DNA of 28,936 bases from a virus, in IMG/VR virus record IMGVR_UViG_3300045885_000279, positions 1 to 28,936 of that record; one strand, given 5' to 3'. The notes below the pieces were generated by a model, which saw only the letters and a program-made list of their open reading frames with translations, was not told where the DNA came from and did not search any database. This document shows positions 7,714 through 14,373 of the stretch, piece by piece. Each line of letters opens with the position of its first letter. The stretch's first letter is position 1. A program made the position numbers and the translations under genes.

Positions 7714-10188
7714 TCAGCTATAGCCGTACACAAGACCGTGTTTGATCCGGATCGTCAGCCCGCCGGGAATCGGAATGTCGATGTTGTACGCATTGCCTGC
7801 GCCGCGAATCGCGAACCTCGTCGCATCCACCAGGCCGCTCACACCGGAGAGGACCATCATGATCGTCCCGTTGTTGCGGAGTACCATCTCGCCGCACGTC
7901 GGCGCACCGGGATCGACGTTGATGCTGAACAACTGGTTCGCGCCGTAATAGCCCACAACGCCCTTCGACACCGTCGTCGTCTTGTACATCCCCGACGGGT
8001 CGGTCACGCCCAGGCCGACCGACGAGTAGGTCGGGTCGAACGTCGTCGTTGAGATATTCACGCTGCCGTTCGACGCCGTCGAGATCGTGAAGTCTGCATT
8101 GGTAATCGTGACCTTGCCGAGCGCGTCGGCCTTGATGATCGGCGTGTCCTTGGTCGTCCCGCCGACGCCGAGCGTCTTGAACCACCCGCCCTCTGAGCTA
8201 CCGTTGACGCCGATAAACCCGATCTCGGAGCCGCTCGAGTTGAAGACCGTAAACTTCCCCGGCTTCGAGCCGCCGCCGCCAACGCGGATCTCGGTTGCGT
8301 TCAGCCGGGACGAATCCACCGACCCGATATTGATCGTCTCGCCGCGGAGATTCTCAACCCGCGTCCCCTGCATCACGCCGAGCGTGACGCGGTTCGCGTC
8401 GATGTTCACGCTGGTTCCGGATATGGTCCCCTCGAGCACCGATGTATTGATCACCACGTCCTGACCAGCCGTAACGGTCCCCTGAAGGACCGACGCATCG
8501 ATCGTGATCGACTGCCCCGCGGTGATCGAGCCGATGATGGTTCCGGCGTTGACGCTCCCGATCTGGTTCGCCGCGATCAGACCGATAAACGACTGGACGT
8601 TGACCTTGCCGATGCTGTACAGCTTCATCGTCCCGGCGAGCGCGTCGGGATTCGTCCCCTGATCGGTCGCCGTCGTTCCGCCCGCATCCACGCGATAGAA
8701 GTGACCGTTCGCGTTGTTGAAGAAATAAGCGTTCGCCGGAAGATCAGCGTTCGGAAGCGTCGGCATTCCCTCGTAAACCGGGATCGGCCTTGTGCTGTCC
8801 GCGAACTTGCCGAGATCGTCAATGATGCCGTTGGCTAACTGATCCGAGATGATCAGCCCCTGAAACGTGCCCGTATCGACGTGGACATCGTCGCCGGTGA
8901 TGACGCCCTGAATCGTCCCGGCGTCCACCGTCACCAGTTCGCCGCCGATCTCGCCGATGATCGTTCCCGCCGCTACGGTGACCTCGTCACCCGAGATCGA
9001 GCCGTAGAGCGCGTTCGCGTTCAGTTTGAAGCTCTCATCGAGCATGTCCTCGGTGATCGAGCCCGCCGCCGGCGTCGAGACTCCGGTCATCGACCCGAGC
9101 CCCGCCTCGGCCCGCATGAACCGCTCGAGCACCCGCAGCAGACGCTCGGCATCCGGTCGCCGCGGCCCGAAGCCGTAGGTGTACTGCGTGGTCGTCCGGT
9201 TCAGCTGCTTCATCTCGCAGGAGTGCAGAACGAAGGGATCGTTGATCGCGTAATCCTCGGTCTCGATCTGCACGTAGTCGCCGGCTGAGAACTCGTCCGC
9301 ATACGTCACCAGCGAGCCGTTCGCCAGCGGGTAGGCGTTGGCTTGCACCACCGCCTGAGCTCGCAGGATGGCTTCGTTCGCGTCGGTGAGCCCGCGGTCG
9401 AGGATCGTCGTTGACCACCGGCCATAGGCGTCGATCGAGAGCGGGTCCGAGTACTGCACCGTCAGCGCGTTGCCGTCCGCGAGCACGCCGCCGATCACCA
9501 CCGCGTGATTGACCGGACGCGCGAAGTCTCTCGAGAATCCCTCGAGCGAGAACTTAAACGACGTCACGCCATCCGGCGCATCGTCGGTGAACTTATACGG
9601 CGACAGCACCGCATTCGGGCGCCGGTAGAGCACCTTCGCTTCCGGCGTCACCGACCACCAGGCATTCGACAGATCCGCGATCCAGTCGAAGACCTGCCGC
9701 AGCGTCTGGTTCTCGACCACGCCCAGTGCGACGACCGGCAGGATCTGCTCGATGCCTGATGAGTCAAGCAGCCCCGCCGCGTACTTGTCGATCAGGAACT
9801 TCAGGATGTACTGGTCCGAGTGCGTGACGCCGAAGTCCTCGAACGGGACGAGGATGTGTTCAAGCCACGCCGCATAGCCGGCGCACCGGCATTTCACAAA
9901 AATCCGTCCCGGCTTCGGGCGCGAGTAGTCGATATACGACAACTGCCCGCCGAACCGCTTCCGCCCGGTGTTCTGGTCGAGAATCGTGACGCGGTTCAGT
10001 TCCTCCAGCTGGATTGACCACTCGGCCTGATCCCACCGGTCCTCGTCCCACCGCGCCGGCTGCGCGGCGAGCATCGCGGTGAACTCAGCCGTGGGTACGC
10101 GGCTCTGCGAGTCCTCGTGAATCCGCAGGGACTCGTGCATCACCGCGCCGGATACGTCCGAGCCCTCGATCAGCACCCGCGGGATCAA
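7714..10188 (-). CDS. Tail hub/tip protein with beta-solenoid extension
   Basis: 824 aa. It begins with TTG at 10188 overlapping the tape-measure stop (TTGA), with GGGAG seven bases upstream. Residues 1-345 look like a Dit/hub-type domain: IEGSDVSGAVMHESLRIHED, AQPARWDEDRWDQAEWSIQL, and repeated beta strands ending in the RTTTQYTYGFGPRRPDAERL segment, as in tail-tip proteins behind the tape measure. Residues about 392-450 and 540-625 are two blocks of short repeats (GTI-x-G-x-I-x-G-x-x-V-x-V-D-A-G-T-I-x-G), probably a beta-solenoid shaft. A globular beta C-terminus (640-824) ends with PGGLTIRIKHGLVYGYS. It likely forms the tip that carries the fibre. No lytic enzyme motif seen. Confidence 0.75.
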   Translation of the reverse strand: MIPRVLIEGSDVSGAVMHESLRIHEDSQSRVPTAEFTAMLAAQPARWDEDRWDQAEWSIQLEELNRVTILDQNTGRKRFGGQLSYIDYSRPKPGRIFVKCRCAGYAAWLEHILVPFEDFGVTHSDQYILKFLIDKYAAGLLDSSGIEQILPVVALGVVENQTLRQVFDWIADLSNAWWSVTPEAKVLYRRPNAVLSPYKFTDDAPDGVTSFKFSLEGFSRDFARPVNHAVVIGGVLADGNALTVQYSDPLSIDAYGRWSTTILDRGLTDANEAILRAQAVVQANAYPLANGSLVTYADEFSAGDYVQIETEDYAINDPFVLHSCEMKQLNRTTTQYTYGFGPRRPDAERLLRVLERFMRAEAGLGSMTGVSTPAAGSITEDMLDESFKLNANALYGSISGDEVTVAAGTIIGEIGGELVTVDAGTIQGVITGDDVHVDTGTFQGLIISDQLANGIIDDLGKFADSTRPIPVYEGMPTLPNADLPANAYFFNNANGHFYRVDAGGTTATDQGTNPDALAGTMKLYSIGKVNVQSFIGLIAANQIGSVNAGTIIGSITAGQSITIDASVLQGTVTAGQDVVINTSVLEGTISGTSVNIDANRVTLGVMQGTRVENLRGETINIGSVDSSRLNATEIRVGGGGSKPGKFTVFNSSGSEIGFIGVNGSSEGGWFKTLGVGGTTKDTPIIKADALGKVTITNADFTISTASNGSVNISTTTFDPTYSSVGLGVTDPSGMYKTTTVSKGVVGYYGANQLFSINVDPGAPTCGEMVLRNNGTIMMVLSGVSGLVDATRFAIRGAGNAYNIDIPIPGGLTIRIKHGLVYGYS

Positions 10189-13178
10189 AGCATCACTCCC
10201 TGTAGTTTGAGCGCCACCGCGTCGGCGGTTGCCATCGGGGACGCCGCGCCGCTCACGTTGATCGTGACGGATGCGGGCTTTGCGACGAGCAGATCGCGGA
10301 TCTCGGCGAGCAGCGTGTTTTGCTCGCGCATGACCGAACTGCTCCCGGCGGTGTTGGTCGCGATGTCGTAGAGCCGGTCATTCATGCTTTCGGCGGTGGA
10401 CATGAGCGATGCGAATGCGGGAGTAAATGTGTCCCACAAGTAACCAGCGATCTCCGGAAGCTTGGGCAAGTACTTGTTCACGCCGTCCTCGAGGATGTGT
10501 TTCAGGTGGATCTGCGAATACCGGACCTCGTGCTCGATCAGGTCCAGCGTCTTGTTCATCCCGGCCATTTGAAAATTGCCCACGATGCCGCTGATCGCAC
10601 TCGCGATACTTCCCACCGCACCGACGATCCCGGCCAGACCCGAACCCACCGCGGCTGCTCCACCACCAGCACCGCCCGCGCCACCGGCACCGCCCGCCGC
10701 ACCGGCACCGCCCGACACGATCCCGCCGGCCGCGTCCGATGCGCCGCCGAACACGTCGGTAACCGTCTTGCCGATATCCTTCACCCGGTCGAGCAGCCCG
10801 CCGAACCCCTTACCGCCCATCAGATCGGCGAGCGCGCCGCCGATGAAATCACCGATCGCGGCCGTTGCCGGTTCGATGAACGCGCGCGATACCGCTTGCC
10901 CAAGCGCGTCCAGTGCCGCGCGGCCCTTTTCCGCCCACGACTTGTCACCGTCGAACAGGATGCCGGCGAGATCGCGCCCGAGGTCCGTAACGATGGTCGA
11001 AACCTGTTTGCTCCACTCCGACCACTTATCCTTTTGTTTCTTGCCGGACGTGTCGAGCTGCTCTTCCATCTTTTCGAGCGTCTTTTTCTGCTCTGCGGTG
11101 ATGATGCCGCCCTCAGCAAAGACCGCTTCCTGACGCCGCTTTTCCATCTCTACCCACGCGCGGTCAATGTCGTTCGCGGACGCCGTACCGCTTGCGGTGA
11201 TCTTGTCGTAAGCCTCTTTTGCTTTCAGCCACTGCTTGTCGAGTTCCGCGGACGACGTAACGCCGAGTTCCTTGTAGGCGTTTTCGAGGTCTTTGTTAGC
11301 TTTAATAACCGCCTGAACTTCCGGCGGTATGCGCTTGGTAAGCGGAATTATGACATCGACAGTCTCAGTCGCCGCTTTCCGCATCGCTTCGTGAGCTTTG
11401 CCGAATTCGATCGAGAGTTGCCGCGCGCTCGCCTCCAGTTGCCGGTCAAGCTGCTCGATCTTCTGGTACGCCTGCTCGAACCACTTGCGGTTGGCTTCGG
11501 CATCCTTTGCCGCTTTGTCGTATCGCTTGTACGCGGCATCCCACGCATCGGCGACGGCGCGTGCGTGATCGCCGGCTGCTTTTGCTGCTTTGGCCGCTGC
11601 CGCGGCCGCCTTCTTTTGCGCGGCCTCCGTCTTCGTCGCCGCTTCCGCTGCCTCGCGTTGCTTTTTTGCCATCGCGTCAAGCGCCATTGCGTTCGCAGCG
11701 GCGTCGGAGGCCGACTTCTGATTTGCTTTTTGGAGTGATTCCAGCGCTTTCGTCCCGGCCTTCTCCATGTCGGGAAACACGCCGCGAATCGTGGAGACGA
11801 CCTCGGCTGTATCGCGCAAGAGTTTATTCAACACACCCAGAGGACTGATATAGTCTGTCCAGTTGAACGCTTCCCACTTAAGCCGCAGTTCCTCCAGTTT
11901 GTCGCTAAAGAACTTGGTCAGCCCCGAGCTTTCGGTAACCGTCGCGTTGACCTCTTTCAGCGATTTATTGGCCTGATCCGAAACGCCAAACATGCCCCGC
12001 AGCGATTCACTCAACTGATCAATGATGCCTTTTGAAGCACCACCGGCCTCAGATGTCATGTTGAGCGCATCATAGAGTTCCCGCGCCGCATTGCCGGTAT
12101 CCGTCGCCTGCGTGGTGAGAATCGCCAGTGCCGCAACTGCCAGACCGATAGTTGCCGTCCACGTGCCAAGTCCCGCTACTGATGTGCCGAAGAACAGCGC
12201 CAGCGACGTTAACGCCGGCATCGCAGCGCCGACCGCTGCGGTAAGTCCTCCGACGGCAACAAGCACCGGCCCGAGTGCAGCCGCAAACGCAACAACCGCC
12301 CCTACTGCCGCCTGCACCGGACCCGGCAGATTTCTGAACCATTCGGCCAGACGGACAACCCCCGCCAGCACACCCTCGATTACAGGCGTGAGCTTTTCAA
12401 GCACCGGAATCAGCGACTGTCCGATAGAGGTTAGCGCCGCCTTCGAAGAATCGCTCAGATTCTCCATAGCGTTCTTCACACCGCCGGATACAGCCGGGAG
12501 TCTTTCCAGTCCCGCGATCACCTTATCAGTGAATTCCTTCGTTGACACTCCGAGCTTCTGCAACACTTCCGTATTGATCGTGCCGAATTCCTGCTTCATG
12601 ATCGCGGCGACTTGCGGCACGCGCTCCATGATCGGCTTGAGATCTTCAGCCACGACATTCGTCTTGCTGGACATCTGCACAAGCTGCGAGATGACGGCTT
12701 CAAGATCGGGCGCCCCCTTTCCGACCGTCGCAAGCGCATTGCCGAACGCCCTCATCGTGCGTTCGGCCTGATCTGCCGAAACGCCGACGGATTGCAGTCG
12801 GATCGAACCCTGGACAGCCTCTTCAAGTGCCAGACCCGGCAGTTTCGCGACGTCTTTCAGCCGCGCCATCTGTTTCGCCGCTTCGTCAGACGATCCCGCA
12901 ACGGCCGTCAGGCCTCGCATCAACGAATCCATATCGGCGGCTGCACCAACAGCAAGCGCACCGAGCCCGACCAGCGGTACGGTGATCCCGGCCGTGAGCC
13001 CCGCACCCAGACCCGCTATCTGCGTCCCGATCTCCGTCAGACCGCCAAACTGCTTCTGAACCTCACCCACAGCCTTGCCGGCCTCGTCGCCTACCTTCGC
13101 GAGATCGGTCAGGTAATCGTCGATGTCGGCGCCGATGACAACCGAGAGAGAGCCCAGTACGTTGCTGAATCCACCCAT
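10185..13178 (-). CDS. Tail tape measure protein
   Basis: 997 aa. It sets tail length and may form part of the DNA channel. The N-terminal tape-measure domain (about 50-260) has AAADMDSLMRGLTAVAGSSD and LPGLALEEAVQGSIRLQSVG as in the TP901/lambda H group. Hydrophobic segments lie at about 285-360 (AVGAVVAFAAALGPVLVAVG). An Ala/Lys-rich coiled coil covers about 480-600 (RQLEASARQLSIEFGKAHEA), followed by further helices to about 720, a Gly-rich hinge at 815-850 and a helical end. Length 997 aa predicts a tail near 150 nm by the usual 1.5 Angstrom per residue. It follows the chaperone pair, the canonical order for siphoviruses. The ribosome site is weak, so translation may be coupled to the gene ending nine bases upstream. 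Confidence 0.9.
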   Translation of the reverse strand: MGGFSNVLGSLSVVIGADIDDYLTDLAKVGDEAGKAVGEVQKQFGGLTEIGTQIAGLGAGLTAGITVPLVGLGALAVGAAADMDSLMRGLTAVAGSSDEAAKQMARLKDVAKLPGLALEEAVQGSIRLQSVGVSADQAERTMRAFGNALATVGKGAPDLEAVISQLVQMSSKTNVVAEDLKPIMERVPQVAAIMKQEFGTINTEVLQKLGVSTKEFTDKVIAGLERLPAVSGGVKNAMENLSDSSKAALTSIGQSLIPVLEKLTPVIEGVLAGVVRLAEWFRNLPGPVQAAVGAVVAFAAALGPVLVAVGGLTAAVGAAMPALTSLALFFGTSVAGLGTWTATIGLAVAALAILTTQATDTGNAARELYDALNMTSEAGGASKGIIDQLSESLRGMFGVSDQANKSLKEVNATVTESSGLTKFFSDKLEELRLKWEAFNWTDYISPLGVLNKLLRDTAEVVSTIRGVFPDMEKAGTKALESLQKANQKSASDAAANAMALDAMAKKQREAAEAATKTEAAQKKAAAAAAKAAKAAGDHARAVADAWDAAYKRYDKAAKDAEANRKWFEQAYQKIEQLDRQLEASARQLSIEFGKAHEAMRKAATETVDVIIPLTKRIPPEVQAVIKANKDLENAYKELGVTSSAELDKQWLKAKEAYDKITASGTASANDIDRAWVEMEKRRQEAVFAEGGIITAEQKKTLEKMEEQLDTSGKKQKDKWSEWSKQVSTIVTDLGRDLAGILFDGDKSWAEKGRAALDALGQAVSRAFIEPATAAIGDFIGGALADLMGGKGFGGLLDRVKDIGKTVTDVFGGASDAAGGIVSGGAGAAGGAGGAGGAGGGAAAVGSGLAGIVGAVGSIASAISGIVGNFQMAGMNKTLDLIEHEVRYSQIHLKHILEDGVNKYLPKLPEIAGYLWDTFTPAFASLMSTAESMNDRLYDIATNTAGSSSVMREQNTLLAEIRDLLVAKPASVTINVSGAASPMATADAVALKLQGVML

Positions 13179-13186
13179 AATGGAAC

Positions 13187-13555
13187 CTAATTCTTCACGT
13201 TCAGCCGGTCAGAAACGATGTGCCTGAAGATGGCGAGTTGCTGTTCCGCCGTCTGCCCGCGGCCGCTGCCGGATCGAGCTCCGGCCGGACGCAGCGACAC
13301 GAAGAAATCGGCCGGCTGCAATGGCTTCTTCCGAGTGAAGCCGGACACCATGCAAGCCACGATCGCGGCCCGGTAATCGGCCGCACGTTCAGACTCACGA
13401 TGCCGCTCAGCGAGCAGCCAGAACTGCCGCGGCGTCAGACGCCAGAAATCGGAATCGGTGAGTCCGAGGTTGTATCTGCCGACAGACCAGAGACGGCCCC
13501 AGTCGATACGCCGTTCGTCCCCTCCGGCGCCGTCTCGTTCGTAGGGCGCCCGGCG
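13187..13555 (-). CDS. Tail assembly chaperone, frameshifted extension (GT-type, TIM-like)
   Basis: This open frame, between a stop at 13556-13558 and TAG at 13187, reads as a conserved chaperone: IDWGRLWSVGRYNLGLTDSD, FWRLTPRQFWLLAERHRESE, then RAADYRAAIVACMVSGF and a basic KKPLQPADFF segment. The FW-x-LTP pattern is that of the GTA TIM / tail chaperone group. It has no ATG, GTG or TTG before the domain and is in the -1 frame relative to the gene at 13435-13890. So it is most likely made only as a fusion after a -1 ribosomal frameshift, like lambda gpGT, giving about 234 aa if slippage is at 13517-13522. It ends nine bases before the tape measure start. Confidence 0.75.
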   Translation of the reverse strand, partial: RRAPYERDGAGGDERRIDWGRLWSVGRYNLGLTDSDFWRLTPRQFWLLAERHRESERAADYRAAIVACMVSGFTRKKPLQPADFFVSLRPAGARSGSGRGQTAEQQLAIFRHIVSDRLNVKN

Positions 13556-13890
13556 TCATCCCCCGGCGCCAGATCCGTTCGCAGCGCATCCCTGAGCGCC
13601 TGCGTGACGCTCGCGATATCGGTGAATCGGATGAGCCCGCCGGCCTGTGTCAGCGTCAGATCCGGATCATCGGCCAGCAAACCCGCCCAGATCAGCGCGC
13701 GGATGTTCACCATCGTGAGGTTACGCAACGCCTCAATGACGGATTGCCCGGTTGCGTCCTCAAAGGAACAGATCGCGTTCAGGTCATAAATCAGTTGCCG
13801 CTCGCGATCGAGCGCGATCGTTACCGGTTTCGTTATCCGGCGCAACGGCGCGTATTTACTCGCGCCGTTGACTACCGTCGTTTCGTGCAT
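13435..13890 (-). CDS. Tail assembly chaperone, short form (G-type, GTA gp10-like)
   Basis: 151 aa. The folded part is residues 10-105: ITKPVTIALDRERQLIYDLN, AICSFEDATGQSVIEALRNL, IRALIWAGLLADDPDLTLTQ and AGGLIRFTDI. This corresponds to the G-type or GTA gp10-like chaperone that precedes the tape measure and binds it during tail assembly. Residues 110-151 are Thr/Ser/Gly/Pro-rich and look disordered, serving as the stretch read in both frames before the shift. It sits between the tail tube and the tape measure as expected. Confidence 0.75.
   Translation of the reverse strand: MHETTVVNGASKYAPLRRITKPVTIALDRERQLIYDLNAICSFEDATGQSVIEALRNLTMVNIRALIWAGLLADDPDLTLTQAGGLIRFTDIASVTQALRDALRTDLAPGDDAGRPTNETAPEGTNGVSTGAVSGLSADTTSDSPIPISGV
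13517..13525 (-). other. Candidate -1 frameshift site
   Basis: On the minus strand GGAGGGGAC lies in the zone open in both frames (13437-13555). In the zero frame it is G-GAG-GGG-AC; the tRNA on GGG (codon 124) can re-pair one base back with GGG, after which reading continues as GAC-GAA-CGG into the extension. It is not a perfect X-XXY-YYZ heptamer, and no other better candidate was found by eye. The purine-rich run may also act as an internal Shine-Dalgarno stimulator. Confidence 0.35.
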
Positions 13891-13893
13891 ACG

Positions 13894-14373
13894 TTACGCC
13901 GCCTTTGCCGGCGTTGCCTCAGTTGCCGCGAGCGCGCCCGCTTCCGCGAGCGTGACCGTTCCGGCGACGCGGATCGACACTTCCGCCATCAGCGCGTCGT
14001 CCGGCGTCGCTTGCGGTGTCGGATAGCTCTTAACGAACCCGCTGAACGTCGCCGCATACGGCGGAACCGTCGCCCACTCGATTTTCATATTGGAGACTGT
14101 CCCCTGAATGAACAGATCCCAGAGTCCACCCGCGGCCGGGCCGTGAGACGGCAGCTCCGGGTCCCACACCAGCGTAAGCGGCATCTCGCCGGCATCCTTG
14201 AACGTTTGCAGGAATTCCCTGAACCCGCTTGTGTTGTCCAGCGTCGTCACCTCAGTTTCATCCGCCGTGATGTCGATGGACCCGATCGACTGGACTTGCG
14301 CGACTTCCGTGTATGTCCCCGGCGTTCCGCCCTCAATCGAGAATTTCGCGCCGCGTCCGGTGTATTTCGCCAT
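13894..14373 (-). CDS. Major tail tube protein
   Basis: 159 aa with a strong GGAGGGTAAAGGACAA ribosome region before the ATG. The sequence is beta-rich and follows the siphovirus tube pattern: MAKYTGRGAKFSIEGGTPGT, AQVQSIGSIDITADETEVTT (the D-x-T-x-x-x-x-x-V-T-T-L pattern), LDNTSGFREFLQTFKDAGEM, PLTLVWDPELP, and ATFSGFVKSYPTPQATPDDA, ending with MAEVSIRVAGTVTLA. This resembles lambda gpV-like and GTA-type tube proteins. It would polymerise into the hollow tail tube around the tape measure. Position between the tail terminator and chaperones agrees. Confidence 0.85.
   Translation of the reverse strand: MAKYTGRGAKFSIEGGTPGTYTEVAQVQSIGSIDITADETEVTTLDNTSGFREFLQTFKDAGEMPLTLVWDPELPSHGPAAGGLWDLFIQGTVSNMKIEWATVPPYAATFSGFVKSYPTPQATPDDALMAEVSIRVAGTVTLAEAGALAATEATPAKAA

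Follow-up and report, generated by a model that had tools for sequence, protein, structure and literature searches.

A probable C_CCU slip site for -1 frameshifting in a phage tail assembly chaperone pair and its recurrence among relatives

Judged from its sequence, a pair of overlapping frames on the minus strand of a virus contig, analysed here over its whole length of 28,936 bases (hereafter the window), is very probably a tail assembly chaperone of the lambda gpG/gpGT kind, with the longer GT protein made by -1 frameshifting. The probable explanation for the locus as a whole is such a chaperone pair with a slip on a C_CCU and a stem-loop behind it. The G/GT pair itself is of a known kind, and the slip at C_CCU is likely what is new.

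The minus-strand gene order in the window is tail tube, G, -1 extension, and tape measure. The tail tube gene (13894..14373, minus strand; PF16461, E 1.2e-9) lies directly upstream of G (13435..13890, minus strand), which starts with ATG, encodes a gpG-like tail assembly chaperone of 151 aa, and matches the tail protein family phrog_2115 (E 4.5e-17). Directly downstream of the extension, or T part (13187..13555, minus strand; 122 codons), the tape measure gene follows (10185..13178, minus strand; PF20155 TMP_3, E 5.6e-21). G and its extension are thus flanked by the tail tube and tape measure genes as in gpG/gpGT-type pairs, and the gene order bears out a sequence-only reading of this DNA that had placed the extension between a gpG-like gene and the tape measure. 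The extension frame is open between TGA 13558-13556 and TAG 13189-13187 and overlaps G by 121 bases; with codon starts modulo 3 of 0 for G (13890) and 1 for the extension (13555), it lies in the -1 frame. Its earliest in-frame ATG, GTG, or TTG is the GTG at 13360-13358, downstream of FWRLTP (13447-13430), and no start codon precedes the domain. This confirms the start-less -1 frame, the FW-x-LTP pattern, and the overlap of about 120 bases with the gpG-like gene that the same reading had described. The distance to the first in-frame start is the same in the relative L005, whose extension is identical.

In profile searches, PF09550 Phage_TAC_6 matches the extension above its curated cut-off (E 2.2e-6, 28.4 bits vs. 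23.4), whereas the lambda gpT family PF06223 Phage_tail_T stays below it (E 1.9e-4, 22.3 bits vs. 25.9). In a 42-member extension alignment, which omits L005 as identical to the window, PF09550 is matched by 26 and PF06223 by 15 extensions (E 0.01). All 43 G cluster representatives match phrog_2115 and 26 of them match PF11836 Phage_TAC_11 (GTA-gp10) at the same threshold; the PF11836 HMM gave no match to the window's own G at E 0.01. The remaining similarities were taken as chance, namely a HemN_C match to G (19.3 bits, cut-off 24) and matches to PDB sequence profiles at E <=1, of which there were nine distinct sequences for the extension (best 9zem_A 'HeliScrew4', E 6.4e-6, no stretch passing alone) and one for G (3jqh_A, E 0.006). 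In the AlphaFold2 model of G, a confident core at about residues 21-107 gives way to a low-confidence tail, in which residue 116, the slip position, lies. The extension model has a helical domain that starts at residue 15 counted from the joint, and the predicted joint is in a low-confidence linker of both models. Foldseek searches with the G and extension models gave no match in the PDB at E 0.001 and a single one among viral models, a 247-aa protein (E 8.3e-5).

Searching viral contigs with the G alignment identified 59 loci, and searching with the extension alignment identified 116 relatives, of which the best 80 were used. The closest are L005 (extension identical to that of the window; best tblastn segment of G 86% identical), L006/L007 (G 76%, extension 72-73%), and L026 (extension 52% and G 45% in the alignment). 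The frame count rests on the best 80 of the 116 relatives, with the extension placed by tblastn and G by HMM, because the slip-site counts in a 43-cluster set presuppose the -1 frame. An extension overlapping G in the -1 frame was found in 79 of these best 80 of 116, supporting the claimed lambda-type pair. No case of the extension standing apart as a gene with a start of its own came up, all of the best 80 of 116 overlapping a G frame. In 70 of the same 80, the extension frame contains no ATG, GTG, or TTG before the G stop; the other 10 contain at least one, as do 6 of the 43 clusters, and an internal start is possible in these 10 relatives by sequence alone. With the 20 codons at the start of G set aside, the window and L006 differ at 11 of 115 aligned overlap bases vs. 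138 of 523 bases in the single-frame flanks (Fisher p 5e-5), as would be expected if both frames are used. The sole +1 extension among the best 80 of 116 occurs in L085 (1544-2303), where G ends in TCC TCC CCT TAG, and may reflect either a +1 frameshift or an indel. L005 (1950-2720) is identical to the window (13170-13900) from late G through the extension, but the earlier part of G is clearly diverged, which looks like recombination within the gene. Searches among phages by tblastn gave no match to the window's extension or that of L012 at E 0.01, nor to parts of the L121 and L124 extensions or to the L121 G at E 0.001, and genome-contig scans confirmed no relative.

Defining a classic heptamer as any X_XXY_YYZ in register with all bases allowed, we found none in the usable G/extension overlap of the window, consistent with the earlier view that the slip site is non-canonical. 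Taking as X_XXZ sites those codons at which the bound tRNA could pair again after moving back by one base, we count two in the window, C_CCT 13546-13543 and G_GGG 13522-13519. L006 contains only C_CCT and L026 contains C_CCT plus one A_AAC, so that C_CCT is the one X_XXZ site that the window, L005, L006, and L026 all possess. All four share GCGCCCTAC, which L026 keeps unchanged amid a diverged linker. CCT makes up 19 of the 223 proline codons in 13 window genes. We therefore propose G_CGC_CCU (GCGCCCU, 13543..13549, minus strand) as the slip site, with slippage probably occurring at its C_CCU, where the proline codon CCU 13545-13543 would shift to CCC 13546-13544; the predicted joint is ...GDDAGRP|YERDG... 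in a fusion of 234 aa (116 + 118). In our reading of the codon-anticodon rules, a GGG anticodon fits CCC perfectly after the shift from CCU, while a shift from CGC to GCG gives poor re-pairing.

The RNA following the site offers evidence that is mixed outside the window. A perfect 8-bp stem is predicted to begin 6 nt 3' of C_CCU in the window (spacer 13537..13542; 5' arm GAGACGGC, 13529..13536; 3' arm GCCGTCTC, 13490..13497; all on the minus strand), with z -2.53 for the 60 nt fold (3 of 200 shuffles as good) and z -1.63 for the 80 nt fold; a Watson-Crick stem of 8 bp at this exact distance is found at 26 of 13398 positions. Both arms are kept in L006, in which the loop is changed and the fold is no better than shuffles (z -0.37). 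At this spacing L026 has a different stem, also of 8 bp and including one G-U (60-80 nt folds, z -0.9 to -1.7), and a stem like it is found at 2.8% of positions there. Using the best site where a cluster has several, and treating the background likewise, 16 of the 43 clusters have Watson-Crick stems of at least 7 bp located 4-8 nt 3' of the site, against a mean of 1.17 and a maximum of 6 in 300 background draws. Within the C_CCT class, such stems of at least 7 bp follow 7 of 19 sites (background 0.51, maximum 3), three of the 7 being the window, L005, and L006, and 12 of the 19 clusters lack a 7-bp stem. The 7-bp stem of one sister clade is 98.2% paired with one compensatory change, a weak covariation matched by 231 of 500 shuffles. 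An Rfam scan of 12900-14100 gave no match at E up to 1. Stem counts and folds thus lend the site some backing within the window and for some members of the family, and not for all.

In a 58-locus set (43 clusters), which omits L034, L044, and L049 with extensions running off the contig, 34 of the 43 clusters have a classic heptamer in register vs. 10 and 8 for the two remaining registers, and an upstream control has 3 of 40. We extended the census to 137 loci in 98 clusters at 90% G identity, omitting L085 with its +1 extension and leaving L004, L007, L018, and L156 uncounted. A classic X_XXY_YYZ heptamer is present in 76 of the 98 clusters. Exactly one in-frame C_CCT is found in 19 of the 22 clusters without it, among which the window, L005, and L006 form three separate clusters by G identity though they are related, compared with 1.15 expected from the upstream rate in the same genes (3 of 2114 codons vs. 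19 of 843 in the overlaps). C_CCT occurs 0 and 2 times in 821 codons of the other two registers and in none of the 2104 codons of the extension-only part. It ranks first among the in-frame tetranucleotides enriched in those overlaps (p 2e-8), followed by CTGA, which contains the G stop codon. The frequency of C_CCG is little changed (5/843 vs. 9/2114 upstream), indicating that the C_CCT signal is codon-specific and not a general preference for proline. The three non-heptamer clusters without C_CCT (L038, L039, and L058) have G_GGG, within GGGGGAA in L038 and L039. In these three, stems of 7-9 bp lie downstream of G_GGG (L038 2737-2788, L039 2719-2830, L058 682-706).

The 19 sites read G_GAC_CCT (n = 12), G_CGC_CCT (n = 4; window, L005, L006, and L026), and A_GAC_CCT, C_CGC_CCT, and A_TCC_CCT (n = 1 each). 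C_CCT without a classic heptamer occurs at seven or eight places on the G tree, three of which adjoin sisters with classic sites: L050/L088 (A_AAC_CCT) next to L114-L139, L047/L106 (GGGAAAC) next to L043/L124/L138/L143, and L094 (GGGAAAC) next to L090. We grouped the tree into ten lineages, in which many deeper forks are weak, the bootstrap is unsettled, and L026 is unplaced; if L026 is grouped with the window, C_CCT is present in seven of nine lineages. In one sister clade, A_AAC_CCT and G_GAC_CCT alternate ahead of conserved downstream sequence, and the sequence downstream of the site is largely common to L050 and L121, GAC taking the place of AAC while CCT stays constant. On balance, we lean towards C_CCU being a distinct, repeatedly evolved -1 slip class of GC-rich phages in this chaperone family, in which the shift of one proline tRNA from CCU to CCC would be enough, often helped by a hairpin, and the preceding codon would be free to lose its re-pairing (A_AAC and G_GGC, then G_GAC, then C_CGC, A_TCC, and G_CGC). 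The window's G_CGC_CCU is an extreme case, leaving the proline tRNA as the sole one able to re-pair. If the site works despite a preceding tRNA unable to re-pair, it bears on whether -1 slippage requires one tRNA or two.

In the mechanism that we infer, including its efficiency and the ribosomal site that would hold the proline tRNA at the slip, most ribosomes would finish G, and a fraction would slip back one base with the proline tRNA on CCU 13545-13543. This tRNA would re-pair with the overlapping CCC 13546-13544 and reading would continue in the -1 frame to yield the 234-aa GT fusion, while the stem-loop 6 nt downstream would hold the ribosome at the site. By analogy with lambda, G may bind the tape measure protein and the T part may bring in tail-tube subunits, in which case the ratio of G to GT would matter.

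The lambda slip site is a classic one, GGGAAAG, unlike the G_CGC_CCU of the window. Lambda-type frameshifting of chaperone genes is established, as described in the portions available of three studies (PMC5009743; PMC10885494; PMC3711429), one of which gives frameshifting of 6-7% for two phage chaperone genes (PMC3711429). The window resembles the lambda gpG/gpGT system, as presented in the accessible part of PMC5009743, in gene position, the -1 frame, and the combination of a short chaperone with a longer fusion, whereas the Phage_tail_T similarity of its extension is below the curated cut-off. A homologous G (28% over 72% of the query, E 2e-5) is found in Paenibacillus larvae phages (for example phage Bob, BOB_12/BOB_13), in which the extension is also in -1 and is annotated as a two-piece join; unlike the window, these phages have a classic A_AAA_AAC site. 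Available sections of PMC11409702 describe two chaperone genes in RcGTA, g10 (pfam11836) and g10.5. The presence of PF11836 in 26/43 G relatives and of PF09550 in 26/42 extensions resembles GTA-type chaperones, and the window's own G differs from RcGTA g10 in lacking a PF11836 match. Non-classic motifs are known from PRFect, among them GGGGGAA and 'twoonefour' (excerpts of PMC10885494), and imperfect P-site codons (GGA, GUU, and GGU) from RNA viruses (excerpts of PMC3542737). Imperfect re-pairing of one of the two tRNAs is a feature shared with these motifs, and the G_GAC_CCU of 12 relatives is of the GGA kind (PMC3542737, as excerpted), whereas the window's G_CGC_CCU is not among the non-classic kinds in the available text of PMC10885494 and PMC3542737. 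CCZ in the A site is called rare in the accessible part of PMC7618472. No description of C_CCU as a -1 site appeared among the papers listed, where the 2004 survey of phage chaperone frameshifts by Xu, Hendrix and Duda figured only as a reference, and the motif is likely novel.

The sequence-only reading had favoured another slip site, a P-site slip on a glycine GGG codon within GGAGGGGAC, which indeed lies at 13525-13517 and contains G_GGG 13522-13519. Besides C_CCT, G_GGG is the one remaining place in the window and L005 where the same tRNA could re-pair, and it is also what L038, L039, and L058 have, with the GGGGGAA of L038/L039 being a motif reported in the available portion of PMC10885494. 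However, L006 lacks GGAGGGGAC, which is partly deleted and otherwise changed there, and G_GGG is not listed for L026, yet both keep the -1 overlap; in the window, moreover, G_GGG sits in the apical part of the hairpin predicted after C_CCU. A frameshift at G_GGG instead of C_CCU is thus unlikely. The G run at 13567-13563 was rejected as a slip site because TGA 13558-13556 follows in the -1 frame. Its sequence context, GGGGGAT at 13567-13561, is similar to the slip motif GGGGGAA, but a ribosome slipping at this point would stop immediately, and the L006 equivalent is GGCGGAT.

Translation of the extension alone from a non-AUG start, ATC 13507-13505, is still less probable than a slip at G_GGG. 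The PF09550 match begins exactly at this ATC (13505..13507, minus strand), which is kept in L006 and L026 and lies behind GGAGGGG, ending 11 nt upstream in the window. As a start codon, however, ATC is very weak, GGAGG is missing from L006 and L026, and the corresponding position in the extension family alignment is not always an ATC-encoded isoleucine but also L, V, P, T, and others; this start was therefore rejected. The in-register classic heptamers of 76/98 clusters likewise point to frameshifting for the family. A sequencing or assembly indel that splits one gene is hardly credible, since the contigs L005, L006/L007, and L026 from other metagenomes keep the frame relation, as do 79/80 homologues (best 80 of 116), and both frames look constrained. 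Slippage of RNA polymerase instead of the ribosome usually needs a long A or T run, and with a longest single-base run of four bases (GGGG) in the overlap, it can be given next to no weight. Slippage of the ribosome on C_CCU thus remains the reading that we prefer.

Chaperone frameshifts without a classic heptamer are easily missed or misannotated, and the C_CCU rule provides a definite, testable slip site for such overlaps. The accessible part of PMC10885494 mentions 22 annotated phage genomes with none of the PRFect motifs anywhere in the overlap. Within the present family, the public records of two Bacillus plasmids and of a Syntrophomonadaceae phage present the extension as a gene of its own with an internal start. 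The loci so recorded are L019 (1599-1835), L020 (1554-1817), and L156 (1923-2135), whose overlaps carry classic slip sites, A_AAA_AAC in L019 and L020 and C_CCA_AAC in L156.
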